DNA of 64,000 bases. Source: Thauera sp. GDN1 (GTDB lineage: Bacteria; Pseudomonadota; Gammaproteobacteria; Burkholderiales; Rhodocyclaceae). Made by a program: the position numbers and the translations under genes. Of this stretch, positions 12,625 to 34,929 are shown piece by piece (position 1 is the first letter of the stretch; the number at the start of each line of letters is the position of its first letter). Location: NCBI RefSeq assembly GCF_029223545.1, contig NZ_CP097870.1:1674001-1738000 (forward strand). The letters run 5' to 3'. A model generated the notes under the pieces. That model saw only the letters and a list, made by a program, of their open reading frames with translations, had not been told where the DNA came from and searched no databases.

Positions 12625-12628
12625 CGTA

Positions 12629-15285: not shown

Positions 15286-15369
15286 TGGCACATCTGGGCC
15301 GTGAACAACACAGCGGCGTCGTGCGATCGGGCAGGGCGCCAACTTATCGATGACAGGGAGGAGCAGAAC

Positions 15370-18797: not shown

Positions 18798-19772
18798 TCA
18801 GCGTCCAGCCTGGGCCTGACGGCAGCGCATCGACTGCGAGGGCAGGACGCCATAGGCGGATTTGTACAGCTCGGAGAAGCGCCCGAGGTGGGTGAAGCCG
18901 TATTCGAGCGCCACCGCGGTGACGTTCGGACAGGGCTGGCAGGGGTCGTTCAGGACCGCGTGCACCTTCTCGAGCTTCTTCTGGCGCACGAAGTTCTTCG
19001 GCGTCGTCCGTACGTTCTTCTCGAACAGCATGTAGAGCGAACGCAGGCTCAGGCCGGCGTACTGGGCAAGCTGGTCGGCGCCGAGCTCGAGCTTGATGTT
19101 GCGCTCGATGTAATTGACCAGGCGCTCGAAGTTCGGGGCATGCTGGGTCGGCGTGACCATGCTGGCGTTGTGCTTGAGCAGCACCATCAGCTTGGTCGTC
19201 ACCACACGGTTGTAGTGCTGCAGCAGCTGCGGCGTGGCCATGCTCGACTCGGCCTCCGCGCACAGCAGGCGCAACAGCAGCAGCAGGCTGTCGATGTCCT
19301 CGAACTTGTGCGGCTCGGGGCTGAACTTGATGCGCTCGTTGGGCTTGAACCAGCGGTGCTCGGCACAGGTGTCGTCGAGCATCGAGGACGGGATGCGGAG
19401 GATGAACTTCTCGCAGTCGTCCGAGTAGGTGAGGTCGAGCGGGTCGTCCGGGTTGATCACCAGCACGTGGCCTGCGGGCAGGTCGAGCGTGGTGTGGGCG
19501 AGCCGGTAGCTGCAATGCCCCTGGAGGATGAACTGGGCGTGGTAGATGTCGCCGAGACCCTCCGAGACGATGCGCGCCTGGGCGCCGTAGCGCAGGCGGC
19601 ACAGATCTAGGGTGCCGGCGCGGCGGTGGCTGAGCGAGGCGGTGGCAGCGCCGCCGTTGGACAGGCGCAGGCTGTGGGTGCCCACGTTCTCGCGTACGTA
19701 TTCGGACACCTGGAAGGGGTTGGCGGCGGCGAAGACCTTGCTGGAACCGTCGAGGAACTGGAAGGCCATCAT
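18798..19772 (-). CDS. benR: AraC/XylS-family activator of benzoate genes
   Basis: The protein has 324 residues. The N-terminal domain resembles the BenR/XylS effector domain (YVRENVGTHSLRLS, NPDDPLDLTYSDDCEKFI). The C-terminal double helix-turn-helix includes LGADQLAQYAGLSLRSLYML and ALEYGFTHLGRFSELYKSAYG. It is predicted to activate the benA promoter on sensing benzoate. Sites of the XylS type (TGCA-N6-GGATA) occur upstream of benA. The ATG at 19772 is chosen because GGAGG lies 5 bases upstream; the GTG at 19784 would overlap that site. Confidence 0.9.
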   Translation of the reverse strand: MMAFQFLDGSSKVFAAANPFQVSEYVRENVGTHSLRLSNGGAATASLSHRRAGTLDLCRLRYGAQARIVSEGLGDIYHAQFILQGHCSYRLAHTTLDLPAGHVLVINPDDPLDLTYSDDCEKFILRIPSSMLDDTCAEHRWFKPNERIKFSPEPHKFEDIDSLLLLLRLLCAEAESSMATPQLLQHYNRVVTTKLMVLLKHNASMVTPTQHAPNFERLVNYIERNIKLELGADQLAQYAGLSLRSLYMLFEKNVRTTPKNFVRQKKLEKVHAVLNDPCQPCPNVTAVALEYGFTHLGRFSELYKSAYGVLPSQSMRCRQAQAGR

Positions 19773-19900
19773 GCGGTCCTCCACAGGGCTGCGGTGGCGT
19801 GCGTTTGAATCCGACGTACCTTGCTCATGGGCTTCTCCTCTCCGCCAGGGGTGCAGGCTGGCATTTTTTGCTCGATGTCGGCTTCTTTTCTGGCGCGATC

Positions 19901-20073: not shown

Positions 20074-20850
20074 TCAGCCCAGGTCGCCGCCGCCGACCGG
20101 CACGATCGTACCGGTGATGTAGGCGGCGTCGTCGGAGGCGAGGAACAGGATCGGATCGGCCTGCTCGTCGAGCGTGCCGTAGCGCTTCATCAGGCTGCTG
20201 TCGATCGACTGGGTGTAGATCTGCTTGTACCAGAGCTTTTCCTGCTCGCTCTGCTCCTGCGTGTTGCGCGGCACCAGGCGGGGCGGGGCCTCGGTGGCAC
20301 CGGGCGCGGTGGCATTGACGCGGATGCCGCGCTCGGCGGTCTCGAAGGCGAGGCAGGCGGTGAGCGCATTGACGCCGCCCTTGGCCGCGCCATAGGGCAC
20401 GCGGTTGACGCCGCGGGTGGCGATCGAGGACACGTTGACGATCGAGCCCTTGCCGTTCGCCAGCATGTGGGGCAGGGCCGCACGGCAGCACCACAGGGTC
20501 GGGAAAAGCGAGCGCCGCACCTCGGCCTCGATCTCGTTCTCCTGGTAGTGCTCGTAGGGCTTGGTCCAGATCGTGCCGCCGACGTTGTTGATCAGGATGT
20601 CGATGCGGCCGAACTTCTCGACTGCGGCATCCATGACGCGCTGGCACTCGGCGAACTGCTCGAGGTCGGCCGTGAGGCTCAGCACCTCGACCTTCGCCGA
20701 CAGCTCCTTGGCCACTTCGTGAACGAGCTCCGAGCGGTCGACCAGCACCAGGGTGCCCTTTTCCTTGGCCATCTTCTCGGCGACGCGCTTGCCGATGCCC
20801 TGTGCGGCACCGGTGATCACGGCCACTTTCTTCTTGAAACGGTTTGCCAT
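20074..20850 (-). CDS. benD: Benzoate cis-diol dehydrogenase (BenD)
   Basis: The protein has 258 residues and is a short-chain dehydrogenase. It oxidises 1,6-dihydroxycyclohexa-2,4-diene-1-carboxylate with NAD+, releasing CO2 and giving catechol. It has the cofactor motif TGAAQGIG, NNVGG, and the catalytic S..YxxxK in VSSIATRGVNRVPYGAAKGG. AGGAG precedes the ATG. It is the last gene of benABCD, 27 bp after benC. Confidence 0.94.
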   Translation of the reverse strand: MANRFKKKVAVITGAAQGIGKRVAEKMAKEKGTLVLVDRSELVHEVAKELSAKVEVLSLTADLEQFAECQRVMDAAVEKFGRIDILINNVGGTIWTKPYEHYQENEIEAEVRRSLFPTLWCCRAALPHMLANGKGSIVNVSSIATRGVNRVPYGAAKGGVNALTACLAFETAERGIRVNATAPGATEAPPRLVPRNTQEQSEQEKLWYKQIYTQSIDSSLMKRYGTLDEQADPILFLASDDAAYITGTIVPVGGGDLG

Positions 20851-20877: not shown

Positions 20878-21888
20878 TCAGACGCTGGCGGCGAACTTCT
20901 CGTAGTGGAAGCTGTTCGGTTCGACCTTGCGCTCGCGCAGGTCGTGGGCCACGGCCTCGACCATCGGCGGGGGGCCGCACAGGTAGATGTCCACGTTGCC
21001 TTCGTTGAGGTGCGTGGGCTCGATGTGGGCGGTGACGTAGCCCTTCTTCGGCCAGCTGCTGTCGTCGGCGACCACGCACACGTCGTAGCTGAAGTTCGGC
21101 AGCGCGGCCTTGAAGGCATCCAGGCGCTCGAGCTCGACCACGTCGGCGTCGGTGTTGACGCCGTAGATGAGGTGGATCGGGTGCGCGCTGCCACCGCCGG
21201 CGACGACCTTGTCGAGCATGGCGAGGAAGGGCGCGAGGCCGGTGCCGCCGGCGAGCATCAGCACCGGGCGGGCGACGTCGCGCAGGTAGAAGCTGCCGAT
21301 CGGGCCGGCCAGCTTGATGGTGTCGCCAGCCTTCGCGGCGCCGGTGAGGTAGCCGCTCATCAGGCCGTTGGGCACGTTGCGGATCAGGAAGCTGACCTTG
21401 CCCGCGGCCGGCATCGAGCTGAACGAGTAGGCGCGCGTCTGTTCGGTGCCGGGCACGGTGAGGTTGGCGTACTGGCCGGGCAGGAAGGCGAGCTTGGCGA
21501 TGCCTTCGCCCTCGATCACCAGGGAGAGCGTGCTCGGCGACAGCTGGCGCACTTCGGCCACGGTGGCGGTGAGGGTGGCGTGCTTGATCTTGCACACTTC
21601 GGACGAGGCGGGGATGTTCACCACGCAGTCGCTCTTGGGGTGCATCTGGCAGGTGAGGACGTAGCCGAGCTTGGCCTCTTCCTCGCTCATCGCGTCGTCG
21701 ATGTAGAAGCCGAGCTCGTACTGGCCGGATTCGGCCTTGCACTTGCACGCGCCACAGGCGCCGTCGCGGCAGTCGATGGGCACGTTGACGCCCTGGCGAT
21801 AGGCCGCATCGGCCACGGTCTCGGTGGCGTTGCAGTCGATGAAGCGGGTTACGCCGTCCTCGAAGTTCAGCGCGATCTTGAATGTCAT
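20878..21888 (-). CDS. benC: Benzoate 1,2-dioxygenase reductase
   Basis: The protein has 336 residues. An N-terminal chloroplast-type ferredoxin has cluster cysteines C40, C45, C48 and C80. A FAD domain (RAYSFSSMP) and an NAD domain (GGTGLAPF, CGPPPM) follow. It passes NADH electrons to the BenAB oxygenase. GGAGAGA precedes the ATG. It lies between benB and benD. Confidence 0.95.
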   Translation of the reverse strand: MTFKIALNFEDGVTRFIDCNATETVADAAYRQGVNVPIDCRDGACGACKCKAESGQYELGFYIDDAMSEEEAKLGYVLTCQMHPKSDCVVNIPASSEVCKIKHATLTATVAEVRQLSPSTLSLVIEGEGIAKLAFLPGQYANLTVPGTEQTRAYSFSSMPAAGKVSFLIRNVPNGLMSGYLTGAAKAGDTIKLAGPIGSFYLRDVARPVLMLAGGTGLAPFLAMLDKVVAGGGSAHPIHLIYGVNTDADVVELERLDAFKAALPNFSYDVCVVADDSSWPKKGYVTAHIEPTHLNEGNVDIYLCGPPPMVEAVAHDLRERKVEPNSFHYEKFAASV

Positions 21889-21952: not shown

Positions 21953-22441
21953 TCAGATGTGATAAACGTCGATGACGTGGCGGATGTAGTCGGTCTTCAG
22001 GACGACCTTCTTGTCCTTGATGATCGGGCTCGCACCGGACACGTCCAGGGTGTAGAAGCTGGTGCCGCAGAAGTGGTCGGTGTGGTTGTAGCGCACGCTC
22101 ATGGTGTGCCAGTTGAAACGCAGCTTGACCGTCTTGTCGTCCTGCTCGAGCACCTCGATGTTGCTCAGGTGGTGGTTCGTGCGGGTGTCGGGGATGGTCG
22201 CGCTCGAGCGCTCGGTGCGGATGCGGAACACGCGGTCTTCCAGGCCGGCACGACGGCCGTACCAGATCAGCGAGATCTCGGACTGCGGGTCTTCGGTCAG
22301 CTCGCCGTCATCGTCCCAGGCCGGCATCCAGAAGGTGCAGTTCTCGTCGTACATCGCCAGCCAGCTGTCCCAGTCGCGCTCGTCCAGGTAACGGGCTTCG
22401 CGGTACAGGAAGGCGCACAGGTTCTCGTAGGAAATGCTCAT
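21953..22441 (-). CDS. benB: Benzoate 1,2-dioxygenase small subunit
   Basis: The protein has 162 residues with the SnoaL/NTF2-like fold of ring-hydroxylating dioxygenase beta subunits (AFLYREARYLDERDWDSWLA, DDDGELTEDPQSEISLIWY). It is the structural partner of BenA in the alpha3-beta3 oxygenase. It starts 15 bp after the benA stop. Confidence 0.95.
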   Translation of the reverse strand: MSISYENLCAFLYREARYLDERDWDSWLAMYDENCTFWMPAWDDDGELTEDPQSEISLIWYGRRAGLEDRVFRIRTERSSATIPDTRTNHHLSNIEVLEQDDKTVKLRFNWHTMSVRYNHTDHFCGTSFYTLDVSGASPIIKDKKVVLKTDYIRHVIDVYHI

Positions 22442-22456: not shown

Positions 22457-23797
22457 TCAGGCGTTCTGTTCTTTGGCCGCGACGGCCTTGCGAATCTCTT
22501 CCAGCCAGTAGGTGTGCTGGGCGACGTACAGGCCTTCGTCCTCGGTCTTGATGCCCGACAGGATGGGCTTGAGATCGATCTTGTCGGCTTCCTCGTCCGG
22601 GCCTTCGACCCAGTGCTCGGCGCCGCGCGACATGTCGTTCCATTCCAGGTACTTGCCGGCGAAGCCTTCCTGGCAGGCGCGGAATTCTTCGAGATCGTCC
22701 GGCGTGGCCATGCCCGAGGCGTTGAAGAAGTCCTCGTACTGGCGGATGCGGCGCGCACGCGCTTCGGCAGACTCGCCCTTGGGGGCGATGCAGTAGATGG
22801 TGACTTCGGTGCGATTGACGTCGAGCGGGCGGAACACGCGGATCTGCGAGCTGAACTGGTCCATCAGGTACACGTTCGGGTACAGGCACAGGTTGCGCGA
22901 GTTGCCGATCATCCAGTCGGCCTTGGCTTCGCCGAACTCGGCCACCAGGCGGTCGCGCTGTTCCATCAGCGGACGGTCTTCCGGGTTGTCCCAGCGCGTC
23001 CACAGCAGCAGGTGGCCGTTCTCGAACGAGTACGAGCCGCCGCCCTTCTTGGCCCAGCCGCCGGCGCTCATCGCCTTGATGTCGTCGCCCGCGTCACGGC
23101 TCTTGCGCTGCGCCTGGGTGGCGGCGTAGTTCCAGTGCGTGGCGGTGACGTGGTAGCCGTCGGCGCCGTTCTCGGCCTGCAGCTTCCAGTTGCCTTCATA
23201 CACGTAGGTCGAGGCGCCGCGCAGCACTTCCAGGCCCTCGGGCGACTGGTCCACGACCATGTCGATGATCTTCTTCGATTCGCCCAGGTAGTCCTCGAGC
23301 GACTGCACGTCCGGGTTCAGGCTGCCGAACAGGAAACCGCGGTAGGACTCGAAGCGCGCGATCTTCTTCAGGTCGTGCGAGCCGTCGCAGTTGAAGCTGG
23401 CCGGATAGCCGGTCTCGCCCGGGTCCTTGATCTTCAGGAGCTTGCCCGAGTTGTTGAAGGTCCAGCCGTGGAACGGGCAGGTGTAGGTGGCCTTGTTGCC
23501 GTGCTTGAAGCGGGCCAGCGTCGCGCCGCGGTGAGCGCAGGCGTTGATGAAGCAGTTGAGCTGGTTGTCCTTGTTGCGGGTGATGAACACCGGCTGACGA
23601 CCGATCTTGGTCGTGTAGTAGTCGTTGATCTTGGGCAGCTGGCTCTCGTGGGCGAGGTAAATCCAGTTGCCTTCGAAGATGTGCTCCATCTCGAGCTCGA
23701 ACAGCTCCTTGTTGGTGAACATCTCCCGCTTGCAGCGGAACAGGCCCTGTTCCTTGTCCTTTTGAATCAGTGAGTCCAGATATTCCGAGGTGATCAT
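22457..23797 (-). CDS. benA: Benzoate 1,2-dioxygenase large subunit
   Basis: The protein has 446 residues and is a Rieske non-haem iron oxygenase. The Rieske ligands are C87 and H89 (CAHRG) and C107 and H110 (CPFHGW). The catalytic iron site has H216 and H221 ([10 protein letters not shown]), with the bridging D213. It converts benzoate to the 1,2-cis-dihydrodiol. It is the first gene of benABCD, with CAGGAG before the ATG. The divergent gap to the right holds XylS-type boxes. Confidence 0.96.
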
Positions 23798-23863
23798 CGC
23801 CAGAGTCTCCTGTGTTGTCTGATGCGCGGAACCCGCATCGTAGGGAGGACGAAGGGCGCGAAA

Positions 23864-23900
23864 TATCCACTTCTTGCACGACTGCTATCCACTCTCTGCA
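23864..23900 (-). promoter_or_regulatory. Double BenR/XylS box for benA
   Basis: Read on the minus strand there are two TGCA-N6-GGATA boxes, at 23886-23900 and 23864-23878, 22 bp apart. This is the tandem layout of XylS/BenR-activated promoters. TACGAT at 23837-23842 is a fair -10, spaced 17 bp from a -35 position overlapping the proximal box. The gene served is benA at 23797. Confidence 0.7.
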
Positions 23901-23913
23901 GTGCGGTCTTTGC

Positions 23914-23950
23914 TGCACAAAGCGGATAGTGGTCGTGCACGAAGTGGATA
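23914..23950 (+). promoter_or_regulatory. Double BenR/XylS box for the oxidoreductase operon
   Basis: TGCA-N6-GGATA occurs on the plus strand at 23914-23928 and again at 23936-23950, also 22 bp apart. It mirrors the pair that serves benA. TAATCT at 23972-23977 lies where a -10 would be expected by the same geometry. The gene served is the oxidoreductase at 24076. Confidence 0.7.
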
Positions 23951-24075
23951 TTGCCGCCTGTCTGCTGCCCCTAATCTGCGATCCAGATCATTCCGGTGCG
24001 CCGCCTTGCGCGGCCGGGGTAGAAACCAACAAGGACCCCGTTTCGGGGCAGAGAGATAAAAGGGGAAGGGCAGAC

Positions 24076-27000
24076 ATGTCATCCGGCAAGAACGTGGTCA
24101 CTCCATTCAGCCAGGAAGAGGGCGAAATCCACCTGGGCGGTATCGATGCGATCGTCCGCCTGACGCTCGACCAGGTGCGCACCGACGCCCGTCGCGGGCT
24201 CAAGACCGGCATGTTCGTGTCCGGCTACCGCGGCTCCCCCGTCGGCATGCTCGACGCCGCGCTGATCAAGCAGCAGAAGCTGCTGCTGCAGCATCACATC
24301 CACTTCGTCGACGGCATCAACGAGGACCTCGCCGCCACCGCGGTGTGGGGCACGCAGATGCTGCACACCGTCGGCAAGCAGAAGTTCGACGGCGTCACCG
24401 GCATATGGTACGGCAAGGCGCCGGGCGTGGACCGCTCCGGCGACGCGCTCAAGCACGCCAACTACACCGGCATCGCCAAGAATGGCGGCGTGCTGGCGAT
24501 CGCCGGCGACGACCCGAGCTGCAAGAGCTCCTCGCTGTGCTCGCAGTCCGAACCCATGCTCTACCACGTCGGCATCCCCTCGCTGTACCCGGGCAACGTC
24601 CAGGAGATCCTCGACTACGGCCTGCACGGCTACCAGATGTCGCGCCTGGCCGGCCTGTGGGCGGGCATGAAGATCGTCACCAACGTCGCCGACGGCACCG
24701 GCACCGCCAATGTGTCGCCCGATCGCCTGAACTTCGTCACCCCCGACCTCGAGTTCGACGGCAAGCTGTTCACGCCCAACATGAACCTGGGCATGAACGT
24801 GCGCGTCGAGGCGCTGGAGATGGAGCAGTCGCTGTACACCCGCCGTCTCGAGGTGGCCAAGCGCTACGCCCGCGCCAACAACCTGAACAACGTCGTCTTC
24901 CCCAACCCCGACGCCTGGATCGGCATCATCACCGCCGGCAAGACCTACAACGACCTCAACCAGGCCTTCCTCGAGATGGGCCTGGACGAGGCGGCGCTGC
25001 GTCGCTACGGCATCCGCATCCTGAAGATGGGCATGCTGTTCCCGATGGAACCGACCATCGTGCGCGAGTTCGCACAGGGTCTGGAAGAGATCTTCGTCAT
25101 CGAGGAAAAGCGTCCCTTCCTCGAGATGTTCGCCAAGCAGATCCTCTACGGCATGGCCAACGCGCCGCGCATCGTCGGCAAGTTCGACGAGGAAGAGAAG
25201 GAGCTGCTGCCGCACTACGGCGAGTTCGAGTCCGACACCATCGTGCGCGCGCTTCTGAAGCGCCTGTCGCGCAAGACCCGCATCGAATCGGCCGAGAACT
25301 GGCTCAAGCGCCTGGACGAGATCCACTCGCGCAACAAGCTGCCGACCGCGGTGCGTACCGCCTGGTTCTGCTCGGGCTGTCCGCACAACTCCTCCACCCA
25401 GGCGCCGGACGGCAGCATCGTGTCGGCGGGCATCGGCTGCCACACGATGGCGATGTGGATGGGCCGCAACGTGGTCATGGGCACCCACATGGGCGCCGAG
25501 GGCACGCAGTGGATCGGCATGGCGCCCTTCACCGAGGCGGAGCACATCTTCCAGAACATGGGTGACGGCACCTACGCCCACTCGGGCAGCCTGGCGATCC
25601 GCTACGCGGCCTCGACCGGTGTGAACATCACCTTCAAGCTGCTGCGCAACGCCCACACCTCGATGACCGGCGGCCAGGCCATCCAGGGCGAGGTGCCGGT
25701 GACCAACATGGTCTCCGACCTGCTCGCCAACGGCGTCAAGAAGATCATCGTCACCACCGACGACCCCTCGCGCTTCAACGGCGTGCAGCTGCCCGGCGGC
25801 ACCGAGGTCTGGCATCGCGACCGCCTCGACGAGGCGCAGAAGGTCCTCGCCGCCACTCCGGGCTGTACCGTGCTGCTGCACGACCAGGAGTGCGCCGCCG
25901 AACTGCGCCGTGCGCGCAGCCGCGGCAAGGCCGACGAGCCGGCCGAGGTCACCGTCATCAACGAGCGCGTGTGCGAAGGCTGCGGCGACTGCGGCGAGAA
26001 GTCGAACTGCATGTCGGTCGAGCCGGTGCAGACCGAGTTCGGCCGCAAGACCCGCATCCACCAGTCCTCGTGCAACAAGGACTTCAGCTGCGTGAAGGGC
26101 TTCTGCCCGTCCTTCCTGACCATCACCCCGAACCCGGCGCCGGCCAGCGAGGGCGCGCCCAAGAAGAAAAAGGGCCGCATCCCGGCGCTCGAGCGCGAGC
26201 TGCCGACGCCGGTCAAGAAGGTGGACGACAGCCTGGGCTTCGGCATCCACGTCATGGGCATCGGCGGCACCGGCTCGGTGACCGTGGTGGCGACGCTGGC
26301 GCGTGCTGCCCGCCTCGAAGGCAAGCACGTGATCGGCCTCGACCAGACCGGTCTGGCGCAGAAGGGCGGCGCGGTGATCTCCGACATCAAGATCACCCAC
26401 GCCCCGTTCAAGGGTTCGAACAAGATCTCGGACGGCCGTGCCGACCTCTATCTGGGCTTCGACATCCTCAACGCCACCGATCCGAAGAACCTCGACAAGT
26501 GCAATCCGGAACGCACCATCGCGGTCGTGTCCACCACCCAGACCCCGACCGGGCAGATGGTGACCAACCGCAAGGCGCTGTTCCCGGCGACCAACGGCCT
26601 CACCGCCGGCATCGACCGCGTCACCCGCCAGGAGCACAACGTCTTCCTCGACGGCGAGGCGCTGGCCGCGGGCCTGTTCGGCGACGCGATGGCGACCAAC
26701 AACTTCATGGTCGGCGTGGCCTTCCAGGCCGGCACCATCCCGCTCAAGGCGGAGTCGATCGAAGAGGCCATCCGCCTGTCGGGCGTGGCGGTCGACATGA
26801 GCCTGGCGGCCTTCCGCTGGGGCCGCATGGCGGTGGTCGATCGCGCCTTCGTCGAAGCCGAGGTCGGTCGCCAGAAGACCGGCGGTGCCGTGGTCACGCT
26901 GCACAAGAAGCCGCAACTGTCGGCGGCCGCGAAGGCGATCGTCGATTCGATCGGCGCCGACGGCGAAGTCCGCCGCCTGGTCGAGATCCGTGTGCCCGAG

Positions 27001-27618
27001 CTGATCGCATACCAGGACGAGGCCTACGCCAAGCGCTACGCGGAAGTCATCAAGCGCGTGGTCGCAGGCGAGCAGAAGGCGGTGTCGTCGTCCAGGCTCG
27101 CCGAGGCGGCCGCCCGCTACCTGTACAAGCTCATGGCCTACAAGGACGAGTTCGAGGTCGCCCGCCTGCACACCGACCCGGCCTTCCTCGCCGAACTGGA
27201 TGCCCAGTTCCCGCACGGCTATTCGGTCAAGTACAACCTCGCGCCGCCGCTGCTGGCCAAGACCGACCCGGTCACCGGCCACCCGCAGAAGAAGCAGTAC
27301 GGCGAGTGGATGTTCAAGGCCTTCAAGCGCCTGGCCGGCCTGAAGCGTTTCCGCGGCAGCGCGCTCGATGTGTTCGCCAAGACCGCCGAGCGTCAGACCG
27401 AGCGCCAGCTGATCGAGGAATACGTCCAGCTCCTCGACCAGATCCTCGCCAAGCTCAACCCGGTGAACCACGCCGCGGCGGTGGCCCTGGCGAGCGTGCC
27501 TGACGAGATCCGCGGCTACGGCCACGTCAAGGAGAAGAACCTCGCCGCCGCCCGCGAGCTGCAGGCTGCGCGCCTGAAGGCTTTCCTCGAGGCGGAGCAG
27601 GAACGGCAGGTGGCCTGA
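24076..27618 (+). CDS. Indolepyruvate:ferredoxin oxidoreductase-like 2-oxoacid oxidoreductase (fused)
   Basis: The protein has 1180 residues and is a fusion of the alpha (TPP) and gamma parts of an IorAB-type enzyme. The first half has the pyrimidine-binding and TPP regions, with GIGCHTMAMWMG and GDGTYAHSG. A cysteine-rich segment at about 633-685 (CEGCGDCGEKSNC, then SSCNKDFSCVKGFC) should hold Fe-S. The last third has the gamma domain with GIGGTGSVTV and QTGLAQKGGAV. The family oxidatively decarboxylates aryl or other 2-oxoacids to acyl-CoA with ferredoxin as acceptor. Start 24076 follows AGGGGAAGG, and upstream extensions are shadows over the promoter. It is divergent from benA and is followed 1 bp later by a ferredoxin gene. 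The real substrate is unknown; pyruvate from meta cleavage is one speculation. Confidence 0.88.
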   Translation: MSSGKNVVTPFSQEEGEIHLGGIDAIVRLTLDQVRTDARRGLKTGMFVSGYRGSPVGMLDAALIKQQKLLLQHHIHFVDGINEDLAATAVWGTQMLHTVGKQKFDGVTGIWYGKAPGVDRSGDALKHANYTGIAKNGGVLAIAGDDPSCKSSSLCSQSEPMLYHVGIPSLYPGNVQEILDYGLHGYQMSRLAGLWAGMKIVTNVADGTGTANVSPDRLNFVTPDLEFDGKLFTPNMNLGMNVRVEALEMEQSLYTRRLEVAKRYARANNLNNVVFPNPDAWIGIITAGKTYNDLNQAFLEMGLDEAALRRYGIRILKMGMLFPMEPTIVREFAQGLEEIFVIEEKRPFLEMFAKQILYGMANAPRIVGKFDEEEKELLPHYGEFESDTIVRALLKRLSRKTRIESAENWLKRLDEIHSRNKLPTAVRTAWFCSGCPHNSSTQAPDGSIVSAGIGCHTMAMWMGRNVVMGTHMGAEGTQWIGMAPFTEAEHIFQNMGDGTYAHSGSLAIRYAASTGVNITFKLLRNAHTSMTGGQAIQGEVPVTNMVSDLLANGVKKIIVTTDDPSRFNGVQLPGGTEVWHRDRLDEAQKVLAATPGCTVLLHDQECAAELRRARSRGKADEPAEVTVINERVCEGCGDCGEKSNCMSVEPVQTEFGRKTRIHQSSCNKDFSCVKGFCPSFLTITPNPAPASEGAPKKKKGRIPALERELPTPVKKVDDSLGFGIHVMGIGGTGSVTVVATLARAARLEGKHVIGLDQTGLAQKGGAVISDIKITHAPFKGSNKISDGRADLYLGFDILNATDPKNLDKCNPERTIAVVSTTQTPTGQMVTNRKALFPATNGLTAGIDRVTRQEHNVFLDGEALAAGLFGDAMATNNFMVGVAFQAGTIPLKAESIEEAIRLSGVAVDMSLAAFRWGRMAVVDRAFVEAEVGRQKTGGAVVTLHKKPQLSAAAKAIVDSIGADGEVRRLVEIRVPELIAYQDEAYAKRYAEVIKRVVAGEQKAVSSSRLAEAAARYLYKLMAYKDEFEVARLHTDPAFLAELDAQFPHGYSVKYNLAPPLLAKTDPVTGHPQKKQYGEWMFKAFKRLAGLKRFRGSALDVFAKTAERQTERQLIEEYVQLLDQILAKLNPVNHAAAVALASVPDEIRGYGHVKEKNLAAARELQAARLKAFLEAEQERQVA

Positions 27619-27619
27619 C

Positions 27620-27943
27620 ATGAACAGCCCCGCGCCGAAGGTGTTCCATGAGGTGACCATCGCCGAGACGGGTGAGGTGTACCGCTGCCGCGAGGACGAA
27701 ACCCTGCTCGCCGGCATGGAGCGGCTCGGCAAGCGCGGCATCCCGGTGGGGTGCCGCGGCGGGGGCTGCGGCGTGTGCAAGGTGCACGTCGAGGCCGGCG
27801 AATACAGCAAGCGCGTGATGAGCCGGGCCTACGTCAGCGCCGAGGAGGAAGCCGCCGGCATCGTGCTCGCCTGCCGGGTGAAGCCGCTGTCGGACATCCG
27901 CCTCGCGGTGCTCGGCAAGATGAAGAAGAACGTCTGCGCCTGA
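27620..27943 (+). CDS. xylT: XylT/DmpQ-type [2Fe-2S] ferredoxin
   Basis: The protein has 107 residues and is a chloroplast-type ferredoxin with C45, C50, C53 and C85. The region VGCRGGGCGVCKV is diagnostic for the XylT/DmpQ/NahT group. These ferredoxins reduce Fe(III) in inactivated catechol 2,3-dioxygenase and so rescue it. It starts 1 bp after the oxidoreductase stop, so translation is probably coupled, and it precedes the second dioxygenase gene. That order makes a plausible electron path from oxidoreductase to ferredoxin to dioxygenase (inference). Confidence 0.93.
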   Translation: MNSPAPKVFHEVTIAETGEVYRCREDETLLAGMERLGKRGIPVGCRGGGCGVCKVHVEAGEYSKRVMSRAYVSAEEEAAGIVLACRVKPLSDIRLAVLGKMKKNVCA

Positions 27944-27977
27944 GGCCGGACCAGCAGCGAAGGCAGTTGAAGCAAGA

Positions 27978-27995
27978 GGCGGGAGCATTCCCGCC
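27978..27995 (+). other. Small hairpin ahead of second dioxygenase gene
   Basis: GGCGGGA at 27978-27984 pairs with TCCCGCC at 27989-27995 around GCAT. A second hairpin, GGCGTG with CACGCC, follows near 28020-28033. They could protect or segment the mRNA between ferredoxin and dioxygenase. Confidence 0.35.
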
Positions 27996-28070
27996 GCATA
28001 AGCAACCCCGGGGATCGCGGGGCGTGAGCACGCCCGGGTCCCCGTTCATGACCCGAAGAGGAGATAGAAG

Positions 28071-29000
28071 ATGGCAACCACCGGAGTGATGCGCCCCGGC
28101 CACATCCAGCTGCGCGTGCTGGATCTGGACGAGAGCGTGGAGTTTTACAAGAACGTGCTGGGTCTGGTCGAGACCGGCCGCGACGCCCAGGGCCGGGTTT
28201 ACTTCAAGGCCTGGGACGAGCGCGATCACAACAGCGTGGTGCTGCGCCAGGCCGACCGTGCCGGCATGGACCTGATCGGCTTCAAGGTCAAGGACAAGGC
28301 CACCCTCGAGAAACTCGACAAGGACCTGCAGGCCTACGGCGTCGCCACCGAGCGCATCCCCGCCGGCGAGCTGCTGGAGACCGGCGAGCGCGTGCGCTTC
28401 ACCATCCCGACCGGCCACGTCATGGAGCTGTACGCCGACAAGACCGACGTCGGCAATGGCCAGCCCTACACCAACCCGGATCCGTGGATTCCCGCGGCCG
28501 AGCACGGCATCGCCCCGCACCGCTTCGACCACTGCCTGCTCTACGGCCCGAACCTCGAGGAAAACCTGAAGCTGTTCACCGAGGTGCTCGGCTTCCACCT
28601 CGTCGAGCGCGTGCTGATGGAAGACGGCAAGTCGCTGCTGGCGACGTTCATCTCGTGCTCGCACAAGGCCCACGACCTGGCCTTCGTCTGTCATCCGGAG
28701 CCGGGCAAGCTGCACCACCTGTCCTTCCTGCTCGGCAGCTGGGAGCAGGTGCTGCGCGCGGCCGACCTCATGTCGATGAACCGCGTGTCGATCGACATCG
28801 GCCCGACCCGCCACGGCATCACCCGCGGCACCACGATCTACGCCTTCGACCCCTCGGGCAACCGCTTCGAGACCTTCGCCGGCGGCTACGAGAGCTATCC
28901 GGACCATGCCCCGATCACCTGGACCTTCGAGGAAGTCGGCCCGGCGATCTTCTACCACGACCGCAAGCTCAACGAGCGTTTCCTGAGCGTCGTGACCTGA
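28071..29000 (+). CDS. xylE: Catechol 2,3-dioxygenase (benzoate cluster copy)
   Basis: The protein has 309 residues, the same length as the copy at 10815 and highly similar. Almost identical C-terminal blocks include SIDIGPTRHGITRGTTIYAF and FYHDRKLNERFLSVV. Iron ligands are present in FDHCLLYGP, KLHHLSF and NRFETF. It cleaves catechol, here probably catechol made by BenABCD. AAGAGGAGA precedes the ATG. It is preceded by its ferredoxin and followed by an ABC transporter set, so it appears to be the benzoate-induced isoenzyme. Confidence 0.95.
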   Translation: MATTGVMRPGHIQLRVLDLDESVEFYKNVLGLVETGRDAQGRVYFKAWDERDHNSVVLRQADRAGMDLIGFKVKDKATLEKLDKDLQAYGVATERIPAGELLETGERVRFTIPTGHVMELYADKTDVGNGQPYTNPDPWIPAAEHGIAPHRFDHCLLYGPNLEENLKLFTEVLGFHLVERVLMEDGKSLLATFISCSHKAHDLAFVCHPEPGKLHHLSFLLGSWEQVLRAADLMSMNRVSIDIGPTRHGITRGTTIYAFDPSGNRFETFAGGYESYPDHAPITWTFEEVGPAIFYHDRKLNERFLSVVT

Positions 29001-29011
29001 TCCTCCCCGAC

Positions 29012-29034
29012 GCCCGGCGCCTTGTGCGCCGGGC
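29012..29034 (+). terminator. Hairpin after second dioxygenase gene
   Basis: GCCCGGCGC at 29012-29020 pairs perfectly with GCGCCGGGC at 29026-29034 with a 5-base loop and no T run. Partial read-through into the transporter genes is possible. Confidence 0.5.
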
Positions 29035-29122
29035 GCGGACGAGGGTCTCCAGCGTCCTGCCCAGGCGGGACGCCAGCAGATAAAAAAGATTCGACCCACT
29101 CCACCACTTAGGAAGAGACAAC

Positions 29123-30295
29123 ATGAAGCAGACGTTCAAATTCGCCGGCAATCTCGCGCTCACCCTCGCGCTCGTCACCGCCGGCATCGGCGGTGCCCAG
29201 GCCGAGGACAAGGTCAAGGTCGGCCTGATGCTGCCCTACACCGGCACCTACGCCGCGCTCGGCAACGCCATCACCAACGGTTTCAAGCAGTACGTCGCCG
29301 AGAACGGCGGCAAGCTGGGCGGCCGCGAAGTCGAATACGCGGTGGTCGACGACGAGTCCAACCCCGCCAAGGCCACCGAGAACGCCAAGAAGCTGGTGTC
29401 GCGCGACAAGGTCGACGTGCTCGTCGGCACCGTGCACTCCGGTGTCGCGCTGGCGATGGCCAAGGTCGCGCGCGACAGCAAGACGCTGATGATCGTCCCC
29501 AACGCCGGCGCCAACGACCTCACCGGTCCGCTGTGCTCGCCCTACGTGTTCCGCTCCTCCTTCTCGGCCTGGCAGCCGTCCTACGCGATGGGCGAGGCGC
29601 TGGCGAAGAAGGGCGTGAAGAACATCGCCACCGTGACCTGGAAGTACTCCTTCGGCGAGGAGTCGGTCGCCGGCTTCAAGGAGGCCTTCGAGAAGGGCGG
29701 CGGCAAGGTCGTCAAGGAAATGACCCTGCCGTTCCCGAACGTCGAGTTCCAGCCCTTCCTGACCGAGATCGCCTCGCTCAAGCCCGATGCGGTGTTCGTG
29801 TTCTTCGCCGGTGCGGGCGCGGCCAAGTTCGTCAGCGATTACGCTGCCGCCGGTCTCAAGAGCAGCATCCCGCTGTACGGCCCGGGCTTCCTCACCGACG
29901 GCAATCTCGCCGCCATGGGCGGTGCCGGCGAAGGCCTGATGACCACGCTGCACTACGCCGACGGCCTCGCGACCGACAAGGACAAGGCCTTCCGTACCAA
30001 GTACGCCGAGATGTTCAAGATCCAGCCCGACGTCTATGCGGTGCAGGGCTACGACGCGGCGCAGATGTACGAGGCCGGCCTGAAGGCCGCCGGTGGCGAT
30101 CCGTCCAAGCAGGCGGAAGTCATCAAGGGCATCGAGGCGGCGAAGATCGACAGCCCGCGTGGCGCCTTCACCCTGTCGAAGGCGCACAACCCGGTCCAGG
30201 ACATCTACCTGCGCGAGGTCAAGGGCGACCAGAACGTGGTGATCGAGGTCGTCTCCAAGGGCCTCGAGGACCCGGCTCGCGGCTGCAAGCTCTAA
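29123..30295 (+). CDS. ABC transporter periplasmic binding protein, branched-chain/aromatic type
   Basis: The protein has 390 residues. A signal peptide (LALTLALVTAGIGGAQA, cut near residue 26) precedes a Peripla_BP_6 fold. Its landmarks are VKVGLMLPYTGTYAALG and VGTVHSGVALAMAKVA. The family binds branched-chain amino acids, but many relatives in aromatic clusters bind benzoate-like or phenylpropenoid acids. Its place after the benzoate dioxygenase genes suggests an aromatic acid ligand (inference). The permease and ATPase genes follow directly. Confidence 0.88.
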   Translation: MKQTFKFAGNLALTLALVTAGIGGAQAEDKVKVGLMLPYTGTYAALGNAITNGFKQYVAENGGKLGGREVEYAVVDDESNPAKATENAKKLVSRDKVDVLVGTVHSGVALAMAKVARDSKTLMIVPNAGANDLTGPLCSPYVFRSSFSAWQPSYAMGEALAKKGVKNIATVTWKYSFGEESVAGFKEAFEKGGGKVVKEMTLPFPNVEFQPFLTEIASLKPDAVFVFFAGAGAAKFVSDYAAAGLKSSIPLYGPGFLTDGNLAAMGGAGEGLMTTLHYADGLATDKDKAFRTKYAEMFKIQPDVYAVQGYDAAQMYEAGLKAAGGDPSKQAEVIKGIEAAKIDSPRGAFTLSKAHNPVQDIYLREVKGDQNVVIEVVSKGLEDPARGCKL

Positions 30296-30299
30296 GCCG

Positions 30300-30318
30300 A
30301 CCGCCCCGCAGGGGCGGC
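30300..30318 (+). other. Intercistronic hairpin after binding-protein gene
   Basis: CCGCCCC and GGGGCGG form a short stem directly after the binding-protein stop. Such structures often keep the binding-protein mRNA more abundant than the permease mRNA. Confidence 0.4.
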
Positions 30319-30402
30319 CGGCCCGGTCGCCCCTGCCTCCCGTCTCTTCTCGCACCCGCATTCATCCCGGCAGGCGCGCGCCTGCCAGGGAGGGGGAACG
30401 TC

Positions 30403-31269
30403 ATGGATTTCGCAAGCTTCCTGATCCAGACGCTGAACTCGCTGCAGTACGGTTTGCTCCTGTTCCTGGTGGCAAGCGGTCTGACGCTGGTGTTCGGCAT
30501 CATGGGCATCATCAACCTGGCGCACGGCAGTTTCTACATGATCGGCGCCTATCTGGCCTTCGTGCTGACCAGCGCCACCGGCAGCCTGGTGCTGGCGATC
30601 GCGCTCGGCATTCCGCTCGCGCTGGCCTTCGGCGCCTTCCTGGAGTGGGCGCTGTTTTCCCATCTGTACAAGCGCGACCACCTCGAGCAGGTGCTGCTGA
30701 CCTACGGCCTGATCCTGATCTTCGAGCAGCTGCGCAGCCTGCTGGTCGGCGACGACGTGCATGGCGTGGCCATCCCCGCCTTCCTCGACGCCTCGATCCA
30801 GCTCACCGACGTCATGAGCTACCCGGTCTACCGGCTGGCGATCTCGGTGGTGTGCGTCGTGCTCGCGGTCGCGCTCTACTACGTCATCCAGCGCACCCGC
30901 CTGGGCATGATGATCCGCGCCGGCAACGACGACCGCGGCATGGTCGAGTCGCTCGGCATCAACATCAACATGATCTACCGCGTGGTGTTCGCACTCGGCG
31001 TGGCGCTGGCCGCCCTGGCCGGCATGCTGGCCGCGCCGATCTCCTCGGTGTTCCCGAACATGGGCAGCCACGTGCTGATCATCTCCTTCGTGATCGTCGT
31101 CATCGGCGGCATCGGCTCGGTGTGGGGCGCGCTGGTCGCGGCGCTGATCGTGGGCTTCGCCGACACCTTCGGCAAGGTCCTGATCCCCGAGCTGTCCGGC
31201 ATCGTCGTCTACGTGGTGATGGCCGTGGTCCTGCTGTGGCGCCCCGAAGGCATCCTGAAGAAAGGCTGA
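30403..31269 (+). CDS. livH: ABC transporter permease, LivH type
   Basis: The protein has 288 residues and is strongly hydrophobic with about eight membrane segments. LivH-family motifs include GLTLVFGIMGIINLAHGSFY and IGGIGSVWGALVAALIVG. The start at 30403 follows GGGAGGGGG. A long frame from 29533 in the same phase is an antisense-free shadow over the binding-protein gene and is not used. It forms the inner-membrane channel with LivM. Confidence 0.92.
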   Translation: MDFASFLIQTLNSLQYGLLLFLVASGLTLVFGIMGIINLAHGSFYMIGAYLAFVLTSATGSLVLAIALGIPLALAFGAFLEWALFSHLYKRDHLEQVLLTYGLILIFEQLRSLLVGDDVHGVAIPAFLDASIQLTDVMSYPVYRLAISVVCVVLAVALYYVIQRTRLGMMIRAGNDDRGMVESLGININMIYRVVFALGVALAALAGMLAAPISSVFPNMGSHVLIISFVIVVIGGIGSVWGALVAALIVGFADTFGKVLIPELSGIVVYVVMAVVLLWRPEGILKKG

Positions 31270-31273
31270 GACC

Positions 31274-32235
31274 ATGAACGCACACGCTTCCCTCATTCCC
31301 AAGCTCGTGGCGCTCGCGATCATCGCCTGCGTGCCGCTGTCGGGCGAGTCCTTCTACATCGAGATCGTCGGCAAGGTGCTGGTGATGGCGATCTTCGCCA
31401 TGAGCCTGGACCTGCTGGTGGGCTTCACCGGACTGGTCAGCTTCGGCCACGCGGCCTACTTCGGGATCGCCGCCTATGCGGTGGCGATCCTGAGCCCCGA
31501 GTACGAAGCCGCCAACCTGTGGCTGGTGCTGCCGGCCTCTATCGGGCTGTCGGCGCTGGCCGCCTTCGTGATCGGGCTCTTCGTGCTGCGCACCAAGGGC
31601 ATCTATTTCATCATGGTGACGCTGGCCTTCGCCCAGATGGCCTACTTCATCTTCCACGACACCCCGCTGGGCGGCGGCTCGGACGGCATGTACCTCAACA
31701 ACAAGCCCTCGGCCGCGATCTTCGGCTGGGAGCCGTTCGACCTGACGAACGAAGCGCACATGTTCTATTTCATCCTCGTGATGATGGTGCTGGTGTACCT
31801 CTTTCTGGCGCGCGTGCTGCAGTCGCCCTTCGGCCGCGTGCTGGTGGGCATCAAGAGCAACGAGCACCGCATGCAGTCGCTCGGCTACTTCACCTTCCGC
31901 TACAAGCTCGGCGCGTTCACGCTGGCCGGCGCGCTCGGCGGGCTGGCGGGTTTCCTGTACGCCGTGCTGTTCGGTTTCGTGACCCCGGAACTGTTGTCCT
32001 GGCACGAGTCGGGCAACGTGCTGCTGATGGTCATCCTCGGCGGCATGGGCAACCTGGTGGGCGCGATCGCCGGTGCCTTCGCCTTCGAGGCGATGCGCGA
32101 GGTGTTCGCCGACATCACCAAGTACTGGCAGCTGCTGATGGGCGGCGTGATCGTCGCGGTGGTGCTGTTCCTGCCGGGCGGCCTGGCCGGTGTTCCGGGC
32201 CGCATCAAGCGCGCCCTGCAGGGAGGTGAGGCCAA

Positions 32236-32239
<4 letters not shown>
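31274..32239 (+). CDS. livM: ABC transporter permease, LivM type
   Basis: The protein has 321 residues and many hydrophobic helices. LivM landmarks include MSLDLLVGFTGLVSFGHAAYFG and MGNLVGAIAGAFAFEAMREV. It pairs with the LivH-type permease 4 bp upstream. Its stop overlaps the ATPase start (ATGA). Confidence 0.92.
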
Positions 32240-33004
<765 letters not shown>

Positions 33005-33012
<8 letters not shown>

Positions 33013-33718
33013 CATGCTGCTCGAAGCCAAGGAGATCCACACCTACTACGGCGCGAGCCACATCCTGCACGGCATCGACTTCAACATCCGCGAAGGCGAG
33101 GGCATCGCCCTCATGGGCCGCAACGGCATGGGCAAGTCGACGCTGATCAAGAGCATGCTCGGCATCGTGCGTCCGAAGCATGGCCGTGTGCTGGTGCGCG
33201 GTGACGACTACAGCAAGGCGCGCACCTACCAGACCGCGCAGCAGGGCATCGCCTACGTGCCCGAGGGCCGCGGCATCTTCAAGAGCCTGACCGTGCGCGA
33301 GAACCTGCTCATGTCGGCGCGTGCCGGCATCGACGGCCGCCGCGAATGGACCTTCGATCGCGTGATGGCGACCTTCCCGCGTCTGGGCGAGCGCATCAAC
33401 AACGGCGGCTGGCAGCTGTCGGGCGGCGAGCAGCAGATGCTCACCATCGGCCGCGCGCTGATGACCAACCCCGACCTGCTGATCCTCGACGAGGCCACCG
33501 AGGGCCTGGCGCCGCTGATCGCGATGGAGATCTGGCGCATCGTCAAGGAGATCCGCAAGACCGGGATCGCCACCGTGATCGTCGACAAGAACCACGGCGC
33601 GGTCACCAGCATCTGCGACCGCGCGATGATCCTGGTGAAGGGGCAGGTGGTGTTCGACGGCAGCAGCGACGAGATCCGCGCCCGGCCCGAACTGATCCAG
33701 AAGCATCTGGGCGTCTGA
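33005..33718 (+). CDS. livF: ABC transporter ATPase, LivF type
   Basis: The protein has 237 residues. Walker A is GRNGMGKST, the signature is LSGGEQQMLTIGRALM, and Walker B is LLILDEATEGL. It overlaps the end of livG and completes the five-gene transporter. The hemerythrin gene starts 31 bp later and may be cotranscribed. Confidence 0.92.
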
Positions 33719-33749
33719 GTCCCGATCCGCTTTCGCAAGGAATCCAAGC

Positions 33750-34322
33750 ATGAGCAACAAATCCCTGGACATCATCCGCGACGAGCATCGCGCCCTGGCG
33801 GCGATGCTGAGCGGCCTGCGCGCACTCGCGAGCGGGATCGAGGCCGGCAGGCTGAAGCCCGATTTCGAGCTGATGGCGTCGATGATCGAGTACATCGACA
33901 AGGTGCCCGAGAAGGTGCACCACCCGAAGGAGAACGCCTGCCTGTTCGCCAGGCTGCGCCTGCGCAGCGACGAGGCGCTGCCGCTGATCGAAAGCCTGGA
34001 GGAAGAACACCGCCAGGGCGACGCCCGCATCGCGGCCCTGCGCGCGGCGCTGGACACCTATCGTCGCGAGGGCGATGCCGGCTTCGCGGCCTACCAGGCC
34101 GCGCTCAAGGCCTACATCGAGTTCGAGTGGCAGCACATGAACACGGAAGAACACCTGATCTTCCCGCTCGCCAAGGCGCACCTGACGGCGGAGGACTGGG
34201 CCGAGATCGACGCCGCCTTCCTCGCCAACGACAACCCGTGGCAGGGGGCGGCAGGCGAGTATTCGGCGCTGTTCACCCGCATCGTGAACATGGCACCCGC
34301 CCCGGTGGGGCTGGGTGGCTGA
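33750..34322 (+). CDS. Hemerythrin HHE domain protein
   Basis: The protein has 190 residues. A hemerythrin-like four-helix bundle spans about 5-150, with candidate di-iron ligands H13 (DEHR), H54/H55 and E58 (VHHPKEN), H85 (EEEHR), and H and E residues in WQHMNTEEHLIFP. Such proteins bind O2, NO or iron. It follows livF by 31 bp, so it probably belongs to the benzoate-linked unit. An oxygen-buffering role for the dioxygenases is speculation. Confidence 0.85.
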   Translation: MSNKSLDIIRDEHRALAAMLSGLRALASGIEAGRLKPDFELMASMIEYIDKVPEKVHHPKENACLFARLRLRSDEALPLIESLEEEHRQGDARIAALRAALDTYRREGDAGFAAYQAALKAYIEFEWQHMNTEEHLIFPLAKAHLTAEDWAEIDAAFLANDNPWQGAAGEYSALFTRIVNMAPAPVGLGG

Positions 34323-34361
34323 CACCCCCGGGCCCAGGCCCGGGTTTCACCCGAACAGGAC

Positions 34362-34811
34362 ATGACTGAAATGCAGGCAGGATTCGACTGGGACGACCGG
34401 TATCTGCTGGGCCACGCGGCGATGGACGACACCCATCGCGAGTTCGTGACCCTGGTCGATACCTTGCTGACGGCCCCGGATGCCGCGCTCGAACAGGCGC
34501 TGGCGGCCTTTGCCGCGCACGCGGTGGCGCACTTCGAGCAGGAGGACCGCTGGATGAAGGGCACCGATTTTCCCGCGGCCGACTGCCACATCGACGAGCA
34601 CACCAAGGTGCTCGCCTCGGTGCGCGAGGTGCAGCGGGAACTCGCCGGGGGCAATGTCGACCTGGTGCGCGAACTGGCACAGGCGCTGATGGACTGGTTT
34701 CCCGGTCATGCCGACTACATGGATTCGGCGCTGGCGACGTGGATGGTGAAGCGCTCGCACGGCGGTGCGCCGCTGGTGTTCCGGCGCGATACGGCGAAGG
34801 CCTGCGCCTGA
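34362..34811 (+). CDS. Bacteriohemerythrin
   Basis: The protein has 149 residues and is a canonical single-domain hemerythrin. All seven expected ligands are visible: H25, H57, E61, H76, H80, H116 and D121. It should bind O2 reversibly at a di-iron centre in the cytoplasm. A GC-rich hairpin (34327-34344) precedes the gene, and a strong terminator follows it. It is the second hemerythrin in tandem. Confidence 0.9.
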   Translation: MTEMQAGFDWDDRYLLGHAAMDDTHREFVTLVDTLLTAPDAALEQALAAFAAHAVAHFEQEDRWMKGTDFPAADCHIDEHTKVLASVREVQRELAGGNVDLVRELAQALMDWFPGHADYMDSALATWMVKRSHGGAPLVFRRDTAKACA

Positions 34812-34902
34812 TCGAGCTTCCTGCCGGCAAGATCTCCCTCCCCGAAATCAAGAGGTGCGTCGTGGTTGCCCCCCGCGTATCGCGCGGGGGTGATTTCGGG
34901 TT

Positions 34903-34929
34903 TGGCCCGCTTCGGCGGGCCATTTTTTT
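34903..34929 (+). terminator. Strong Rho-independent terminator
   Basis: TGGCCCGC (34903-34910), TTCG, GCGGGCCA (34915-34922), then seven T. It ends the long unit that starts with the oxidoreductase at 24076. Confidence 0.92.

Follow-up and report, generated by a model that had tools for sequence, protein, structure and literature searches.

A 2-oxoacid:ferredoxin oxidoreductase as candidate terminal enzyme of the catechol meta-cleavage pathway in Thauera and related bacteria

In textbook biochemistry catechol meta cleavage leads to pyruvate and acetyl-coenzyme A (acetyl-CoA), and the aldolase/dehydrogenase pairs DmpG-DmpF and XylK-XylQ yield pyruvate, acetyl-CoA and NADH through acetaldehyde. 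Here we analyse a stretch of 64,000 nucleotides from Thauera sp. GDN1 (contig NZ_CP097870.1, positions 1,674,001 to 1,738,000; hereafter the window), which belongs to a genome made up of a single contig of 3.87 Mb and encodes, divergently from the benzoate genes benABCD, a fused 2-oxoacid:ferredoxin oxidoreductase of the indolepyruvate ferredoxin oxidoreductase family (IOR). Judging from the gene neighbours of this IOR and its relatives, we propose with moderate confidence that it acts as terminal enzyme of the lower meta pathway, converting 4-hydroxy-2-oxovalerate to 3-hydroxybutyryl-CoA, CO2 and reduced ferredoxin.

The closest described arrangement is the BenR divergon of Dechloromonas aromatica RCB and Thauera sp. 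MZ1T, which comprises benABCD, a 2-ketoacid ferredoxin oxidoreductase, aphBCEH, an ATP-binding cassette (ABC) transporter and a hemerythrin protein, with aphQ in Thauera only (PMC6449761). The accessible sections of that 2019 paper catalogue the divergon without a substrate or role for the oxidoreductase and mention no alternation with aldolase and dehydrogenase. The initial annotation of the window had regarded the link of the oxidoreductase with a dioxygenase-rescue ferredoxin as undescribed; the divergon as such was thus already on record, whereas a role for the oxidoreductase is not given there. A member of the IOR family with a role after extradiol cleavage is EdcC of Novosphingobium tardaugens, which, by the accessible account, acts in vivo on the meta-cleavage product of the estrogen 4,5-seco pathway (PMC7793797), and an IOR-family enzyme after extradiol cleavage also appears in the accessible part of PMC12507874. 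In a published metabolic model of Thauera MZ1T the pathway leads to pyruvate and/or acetyl-CoA, and "ferredoxin" does not occur in the main text as accessible to us (PMC11741664). Among the titles and abstract openings listed by searches of open-licence PubMed Central, a scope with most subscription journals outside it, no IOR-family enzyme assigned to the 4-hydroxy-2-oxovalerate step was found. As far as these searches show, the hydratase link, the alternation with aldolase and dehydrogenase and the resulting pathway proposal, all set out below, are new within that literature.

The oxidoreductase clade and its gene neighbours

The IOR of the window matches the NCBIfam family "indolepyruvate ferredoxin oxidoreductase family protein" (NF009589/PRK13030) over residues 10-1177 with 1630 bits against a cut-off of 816, and the Pfam domains POR and DUF6537 above cut-off, with TPP_enzyme_C slightly under it (21.2 versus 21.9). 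A GDG-X26-N stretch at residues 496-525 resembles what we take to be the thiamine pyrophosphate (TPP) motif. Cysteines 432, 435, 455, 606, 633, 636, 639, 645, 666, 672 and 677, which presumably have a cluster role, are kept in all 40 members of the clade and all 38 paralogues described below. A sequence search of the PDB with the IOR returned no match.

Matches to the IOR in 61 genomes (that of the window and 60 relatives) fall into two groups, with 65-100% and 40-48% identity. Of 136 sequences found, 82 different ones entered a tree, matches covering less than about 1000 residues or containing stops having been dropped (e.g. L190, G019, G027 and G674). In this tree the IOR falls in a clade of 40 rows with Shimodaira-Hasegawa approximate likelihood-ratio (SH-aLRT) support of 100 and a stem of 0.66, apart from 38 paralogues (40-49% identity), two of which belong to the window genome; four more distant rows stand alongside. 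The tree-building method was a fast one, and the program issued a warning about long branches meeting. Clade and paralogues also differ by near-strict swaps at 43 positions. Clade members occur in seven genera among the 297 genomes of the window's family that were searched. Outside the family, a search of the order (399 genomes drawn from a larger group) gave only G052, the one genome of its family, at E <= 1e-300 and above 50% identity, and a search of the class (321 genomes drawn from a larger group) gave no clade member besides the window genome. Relatives of the IOR were found in 152 plasmid records, all below 60% identity, and in three of these that were inspected no catechol meta-pathway genes are annotated in the stretches concerned. 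On a Rhodococcus opacus plasmid (L133) a distant relative lies beside genes for a fumarylacetoacetate-hydrolase-family protein, a cupin and a benzoylformate decarboxylase, which may mark a further IOR-type reaction in an aromatic pathway.

Genes around the IOR were called with a gene finder supplemented by plain open frames, the finder having missed genes of other codon usage. In 30 of the 40 clade rows the IOR shares a cluster with the 2-oxopent-4-enoate hydratase, and nearly all of these clusters lack the aldolase and the acetylating acetaldehyde dehydrogenase. It lies downstream of the hydratase, away from ferredoxin genes, in 21 of the 40, with 4-oxalocrotonate decarboxylase between the two in 19 of these 21, and here it often closes the series of pathway genes in a benzoate (ben) or phenol cluster. 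The IOR is followed by a ferredoxin gene in ten rows, with a dioxygenase gene next in nine of them, and the hydratase lies within the unit in eight of the ten, the exceptions being the window and L101. The IOR precedes a dehydrogenase-hydratase-decarboxylase block in a single row (L177), and one row is interrupted by a contig end. Across clades the position and order of the IOR differ, yet its partners are kept. At 35 loci of paralogues or distant relatives no hydratase, decarboxylase or aldolase was recognised within flanks of at most 1.5 kb, the sole match being a weak XylE-like one (22%) beside L120.

Some loci are particularly telling. The order in G052 (L087) is phenol hydroxylase, ferredoxin, catechol 2,3-dioxygenase, semialdehyde dehydrogenase, hydrolase, hydratase, decarboxylase, tautomerase and IOR, and this genome, rated 99% complete, has no match to the dehydrogenase model TIGR03215 and none above cut-off to the aldolase model TIGR03217 (best 64.9 versus 286 bits). 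In L188 and L190 the ben genes and the genes from dioxygenase to tautomerase are followed by IOR, transporter and hemerythrin genes, the IOR of L190 matching in two pieces; neither stretch has an aldolase or dehydrogenase, both of which these genomes carry elsewhere. In L096 and L097 hydrolase, hydratase and IOR are the sole recognised pathway genes, so that the hydratase remains as the common step upstream of the IOR. Equivalog models confirmed the hydratase in L087, L188 and L097, as well as the semialdehyde dehydrogenase and decarboxylase of the first two.

Alternation of the oxidoreductase with aldolase and dehydrogenase

The partners of the hydratase were scored in 50 genomes, 40 of them with an IOR, by taking every hydratase match with E <= 1e-90 and recording, within 8 kb on the contig, 4-hydroxy-2-oxovalerate aldolase (TIGR03217), acetylating ACETALDEHYDE dehydrogenase (TIGR03215) and IOR matches of at least 65% identity. 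The aldolase set held matches above cut-off and close partial copies, weaker isopropylmalate-synthase-like matches and the fragments G680:C88 and G667:C10:636826 being excluded; the match list runs down to weak matches, and the dehydrogenase set excludes the weak match G012:C44. Among 81 hydratases from 43 genomes, 40 had only aldolase/dehydrogenase, 29 only an IOR, one both and 11 neither; exactly one partner type was thus present for 69 of the 81 (Fisher p = 7e-12, uncorrected for the relatedness of the genomes). The single hydratase with both (in G012) has the IOR at 2.0 kb and the aldolase at 7.2 kb.

On a tree of 50 hydratases, 49 of them labelled, the partner changed at least four times, three of the changes being forced by well-supported branches; these three can also be explained as one gain and two losses. 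The loci collected in a search for ferredoxins, which was based on peptide patterns, gave 44 loci and is not a census, agree with the alternation. All 14 hydratase-bearing loci without an IOR have aldolase and/or dehydrogenase, 13 of them both (L030 ends at a contig end), and among the seven hydratase-bearing loci with an IOR an aldolase was seen in the examined stretch only at L014. Fourteen further stretches were chosen for, or lie next to, aldolase or dehydrogenase matches. Seven of these (L191-193, L198, L199, L202 and L204) have the hydratase together with aldolase/dehydrogenase and lack an IOR, five (L194, L195, L197, L200 and L201) have the aldolase with no hydratase in the stretch, and no pathway gene was recognised in the stretch of L196; L203 is the hydratase block of the window genome described below.

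Proposed reaction and competing explanations

In the proposed route, ring cleavage would be followed by semialdehyde dehydrogenase and 4-oxalocrotonate decarboxylase (or by the hydrolase) and then by the hydratase, giving 4-hydroxy-2-oxovalerate, which the IOR, with TPP and CoA, would oxidatively decarboxylate to 3-hydroxybutyryl-CoA and CO2, two electrons passing to a ferredoxin. The hydratase product has the S configuration, which would match beta-oxidation, and 3-hydroxybutyryl-CoA could enter either beta-oxidation or polyhydroxybutyrate, bypassing acetaldehyde and pyruvate. Where the classical aldolase and dehydrogenase coexist with the IOR, as in most genomes, the IOR would offer an additional way out, used within the benzoate regulon. 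A neighbouring ferredoxin would serve the dioxygenase and may double as one electron acceptor of the IOR. Enzymes of the 2-oxoacid:ferredoxin type are often oxygen-labile, and the oxygen sensitivity of the IOR is a fair objection. EdcC, however, is described in the accessible account as working in an aerobe (PMC7793797), and the hemerythrin genes of the IOR operon could matter here; their products may buffer oxygen near an oxygen-sensitive enzyme.

If true, the meta pathway would have an alternative exit in Thauera, Dechloromonas and Azoarcus-like bacteria, which occur in wastewater plants and at contaminated sites. Without passing through acetaldehyde, this exit would deliver a C4 CoA ester directly, ready for polyhydroxybutyrate, and an oxygen-dependent pathway would yield electrons at the level of ferredoxin. 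The intermediates and electron accounting of the pathway would change, and a further branch of a large family of enzymes would gain a substrate. In Thauera and Dechloromonas part of the low-potential electrons from the IOR might in addition reach the dioxygenase by way of the XylT-type ferredoxin next door and reduce it again, making the acetaldehyde-free route self-maintaining, with the carbon flow through the pathway repairing its own entry enzyme at low oxygen; this extension we regard as speculative and rather unlikely.

Several observations weigh against the proposed reaction. No meta-pathway genes were recognised near the IOR in seven of the 40 clade rows, six of them from one genus of the window's family with small genomes (L182-L187) and with a similar small gene downstream of the IOR; in L182, the only one tested, this gene encodes a MaoC-domain hydratase, which would also suit a CoA-ester product. 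(As a separate observation, the L182-L187 genomes carry several dioxygenase-like matches.) The 11 hydratases with neither partner fall outside the alternation, and an aldolase gene lies 1.6-8.8 kb from the IOR in six type-1 loci, including the contigs of L009, L010, L011, L013 and L014. G052 has a single clear catechol 2,3-dioxygenase gene (L087 4969-5891), and this is split over two frames, either by mutation or by sequence error. The exact benzoate-type promoter boxes described below point to benA only at type-2 IOR loci, where they are present, and were not found in many loci, so that benzoate control of the IOR is only a possibility there.

The window operon itself lacks dehydrogenase, hydratase and decarboxylase genes, and of these the missing hydratase is the awkward one. 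A dehydrogenase-hydratase-decarboxylase block is found in the same genome at 3.588-3.591 Mb (L203), divergent from a gene for a major facilitator superfamily (MFS) transporter; two tandem BenR-type boxes lie between block and MFS gene (L203 6042-7910), facing the transporter, and the hydratase groups in the hydratase tree with Thauera hydratases adjoining an IOR. To judge by these boxes, the IOR operon and the hydratase block both look benzoate-linked. Aldolase and dehydrogenase genes lie 9-10 kb from the IOR in a phenol-type cluster, with no hydratase in the window, and a second aldolase/dehydrogenase cluster at 2.6 Mb has its own hydratase (L191).

A further point comes from the aldolase side. 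An expectation that aldolase clusters own a hydratase was not borne out: a hydratase (E <= 1e-90) lies within 8 kb of 28 of the 62 aldolases above cut-off, while the other 34 lack one at that distance, and 31 of these 34 belong to IOR genomes. The meta pathway thus seems often to be split over two loci in Rhodocyclaceae-type genomes (50 examined), and in many Thauera and relatives the IOR-linked hydratase may serve the aldolase of a phenol-type cluster in trans. The IOR would in that case be a second way out from the shared intermediate or would act on another substrate, such as pyruvate. This count lowered our confidence in the proposed reaction and raised that in the explanation taken up next.

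Under this explanation the classical pathway is split over two loci and the IOR is a co-regulated pyruvate or arylpyruvate oxidoreductase, forming acetyl-CoA from pyruvate that an aldolase encoded at another locus releases, or CoA esters from phenylpyruvate or phenylglyoxylate. It agrees with the family name and with the distant homology to arylpyruvate enzymes noted in the accessible part of PMC6449761, and with the fact that in 14 of the 15 IOR genomes in which all hydratases above the threshold adjoin an IOR there is one aldolase elsewhere, with no hydratase near it. The remaining genome is G052, which has no aldolase above cut-off; moreover, the long stem and the swap positions divide the clade from the paralogues, and the pairing of the IOR with the hydratase instead of the aldolase is left unexplained. 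Pyruvate from meta cleavage, which the initial annotation had tentatively named as electron source, is a less likely substrate considering that most IOR clusters have no aldolase; it is kept among the candidates because most IOR genomes have one elsewhere. As a whole we judge this explanation improbable.

A shade less probable again is that the IOR acts on an earlier 2-oxoacid, i.e. 2-oxopent-4-enoate (giving vinylacetyl-CoA), 4-oxalocrotonate or the ring-cleavage product. All of these are 2-oxoacids or tautomers of 2-oxoacids, and EdcC offers a precedent for the ring-cleavage product in the accessible account of PMC7793797. In that case, however, the hydratase kept with the IOR in three quarters of the clade rows would be idle unless it served an aldolase elsewhere, and the decarboxylase too is kept in nearly all rows with the IOR downstream of the hydratase.

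XylT-type ferredoxins reactivate catechol 2,3-dioxygenase, and the initial annotation had suggested that electrons which the IOR takes from a 2-oxoacid could feed such a ferredoxin for this purpose; as a rival to the proposed reaction, this would make reduction of the ferredoxin the chief task of the IOR. Its description of the locus, i.e. an IOR-like gene, a XylT-type ferredoxin 1 bp away and catechol 2,3-dioxygenase behind benzoate-type boxes, was confirmed throughout by family profiles and box counts. Nor is the trio restricted to this genome: the survey found it in 9 of the 40 clade rows, from Thauera, an Azoarcus metagenome-assembled genome and Dechloromonas hankyongensis. The one-base spacing, the common promoter boxes, the lack of any other recognised ferredoxin gene in the operon and a family named for ferredoxin as acceptor all fit the suggestion, and since the trio is conserved in a subclade, electron transfer from IOR to ferredoxin is possible. 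A lax search of 34 IOR loci, which left out the window and L009-L011 (all with a ferredoxin) as well as L183, L186 and L189, gave no XylT-type ferredoxin in 19, several of which end at contig ends and five of which have no meta genes; in L091 the match was only 28%. On these grounds we rejected the coupling of IOR and ferredoxin as a general rule. For D. aromatica RCB, the accessible part of PMC6449761 reports an operon that lacks aphQ. At L106/L014 IOR and ferredoxin are kept while the dioxygenase is not adjoining. Phenol operons have the ferredoxin-dioxygenase pair and no IOR, as does the Thauera divergon L015, which carries the same set of four boxes as the window. The link with the hydratase is also left unexplained. 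The idea that supplying the rescue ferredoxin is the purpose of the IOR is therefore not supported, and we give it a low probability, under both preceding explanations. We read the IOR-ferredoxin adjacency as a later rearrangement, and the ferredoxin neighbour is probably a secondary matter for the IOR.

Finally, it is very improbable that the pattern is a neighbourhood artefact, with aldolase and dehydrogenase placed elsewhere for regulatory reasons (in most IOR genomes they do lie in another cluster) and the IOR an unrelated passenger, given the repeated partner change on the hydratase tree and partners that stay constant despite differing positions and orders.

The locus in the window and described systems

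The features of the window locus are collected in Table 1. The stop codon of the IOR gene and the ATG of the ferredoxin gene are one base apart. The ferredoxin has a Fer2 domain with cysteines 45, 50, 53 and 85 and is 44% identical to XylT of pWW0 over 98 residues and 56% identical to the ferredoxin of the Burkholderia vietnamiensis G4 phenol operon. It is separated from the dioxygenase gene (457.5 bits to TIGR03211 versus a cut-off of 320.2) by 127 bases that contain a structured stretch (z -2.4), and a pattern search of this gap gave no T-tailed hairpin on the + strand. The transcription unit of the IOR probably extends past 29000 through the ABC transporter and two hemerythrin genes to the terminator-like hairpin; no sigma-70-type promoter pattern was found in 23700-35100.

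The pattern TGCA-N6-GGNTA, which we take to be the XylS/BenR box consensus, occurs exactly four times in the window, against 0.61 expected and with none of 100 shuffles reaching four. All four boxes lie in the 278-base gap between benA and the IOR gene, two per direction, the boxes of each pair 22 bp apart, and the pair facing the IOR would place its operon under BenR/XylS-type control. The same arrangement of boxes is found in L009, L013, L019, L024 and L015. The phenol-type cluster next to the operon in the window contains no exact box.

Table 1. Features of the IOR locus and its surroundings, in positions of the window.
Feature	Position	Strand	Basis
Acetylating acetaldehyde dehydrogenase, neighbouring phenol-type cluster	13265-14188	+	TIGR03215 above cut-off
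4-Hydroxy-2-oxovalerate aldolase, neighbouring phenol-type cluster	14209-15246	+	TIGR03217 above cut-off
AraC-family regulator, presumed BenR, 45% identity to XylS	18798-19784	-	Domain profile, pairwise comparison
benD	20074-20850	-	NF040811
benC, reductase component	20878-21888	-	NF040810
benB	21953-22441	-	TIGR03232
benA, benzoate 1,2-dioxygenase large subunit	22457-23797	-	TIGR03229
Tandem XylS/BenR-type boxes toward benA	23864-23878, 23886-23900	-	Pattern TGCA-N6-GGNTA
Tandem XylS/BenR-type boxes toward IOR operon	23914-23928, 23936-23950	+	Pattern TGCA-N6-GGNTA
IOR, fused 2-oxoacid:ferredoxin oxidoreductase, indolepyruvate family, 1180 aa	24076-27618	+	Family and domain profiles
XylT/AphQ-type [2Fe-2S] ferredoxin	27620-27943	+	Fer2 and XylT homology
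Catechol 2,3-dioxygenase	28071-29000	+	TIGR03211 above cut-off
ABC transporter substrate-binding protein	29123-30295	+	PF13458
ABC transporter permease, LivH-like	30403-31269	+	Open frame; named by sequence reading, not family search
ABC transporter permease	31274-32239	+	Open frame; named by sequence reading and position, not family search
Two ABC transporter ATPases	32236-33012, 33005-33718	+	Open frames; named by sequence reading and position, not family search
Two hemerythrin-domain genes	33750-34322, 34362-34811	+	PF01814
Terminator-like hairpin with T tail, probable unit end	34903-34922	+	Pattern match only

Relatives of the first hemerythrin gene are present in many Thauera loci and in L097 and L188-L190. 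Directly past the terminator-like site lies a gene for an HSP70-like protein (35081-36340), which scores under the cut-off of the named chaperone family. The phenol hydroxylase cluster (KLMNOP) at 5982-15558 encodes another catechol 2,3-dioxygenase (10815-11741), which shares 76% identity with that at 28071-29000, together with acetaldehyde dehydrogenase, aldolase and tautomerase; semialdehyde dehydrogenase, hydratase and decarboxylase were not found in this cluster.

The BenR divergon of strains RCB and MZ1T, as far as its published description is accessible, resembles the window in the kind of gene set and in the regulator, and differs in that aphCEH are lacking in the window operon (PMC6449761). 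The XylT/DmpQ/AphQ systems of pWW0 (L083) and of the B. vietnamiensis G4 plasmid (L085) likewise have a [2Fe-2S] ferredoxin beside catechol 2,3-dioxygenase; unlike in the window, no IOR is listed in their annotated stretches, and aldolase and dehydrogenase follow in the operon. DmpG-DmpF and XylK-XylQ would share with the proposed IOR the pathway step and the upstream hydratase, whereas the predicted products of the IOR, in place of theirs, are 3-hydroxybutyryl-CoA, CO2 and reduced ferredoxin. EdcC, compared here by its role in the accessible published account, is like the IOR in its family, in its place downstream of an extradiol dioxygenase and in working in an aerobe, and CoA-dependent oxidative decarboxylation of a 2-oxoacid derived from ring cleavage would be common to both. 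The substrate of EdcC, in contrast, is the steroid ring-cleavage product itself, whereas the partner of the IOR is the catechol-pathway hydratase, with the IOR in the usual place of aldolase and dehydrogenase.

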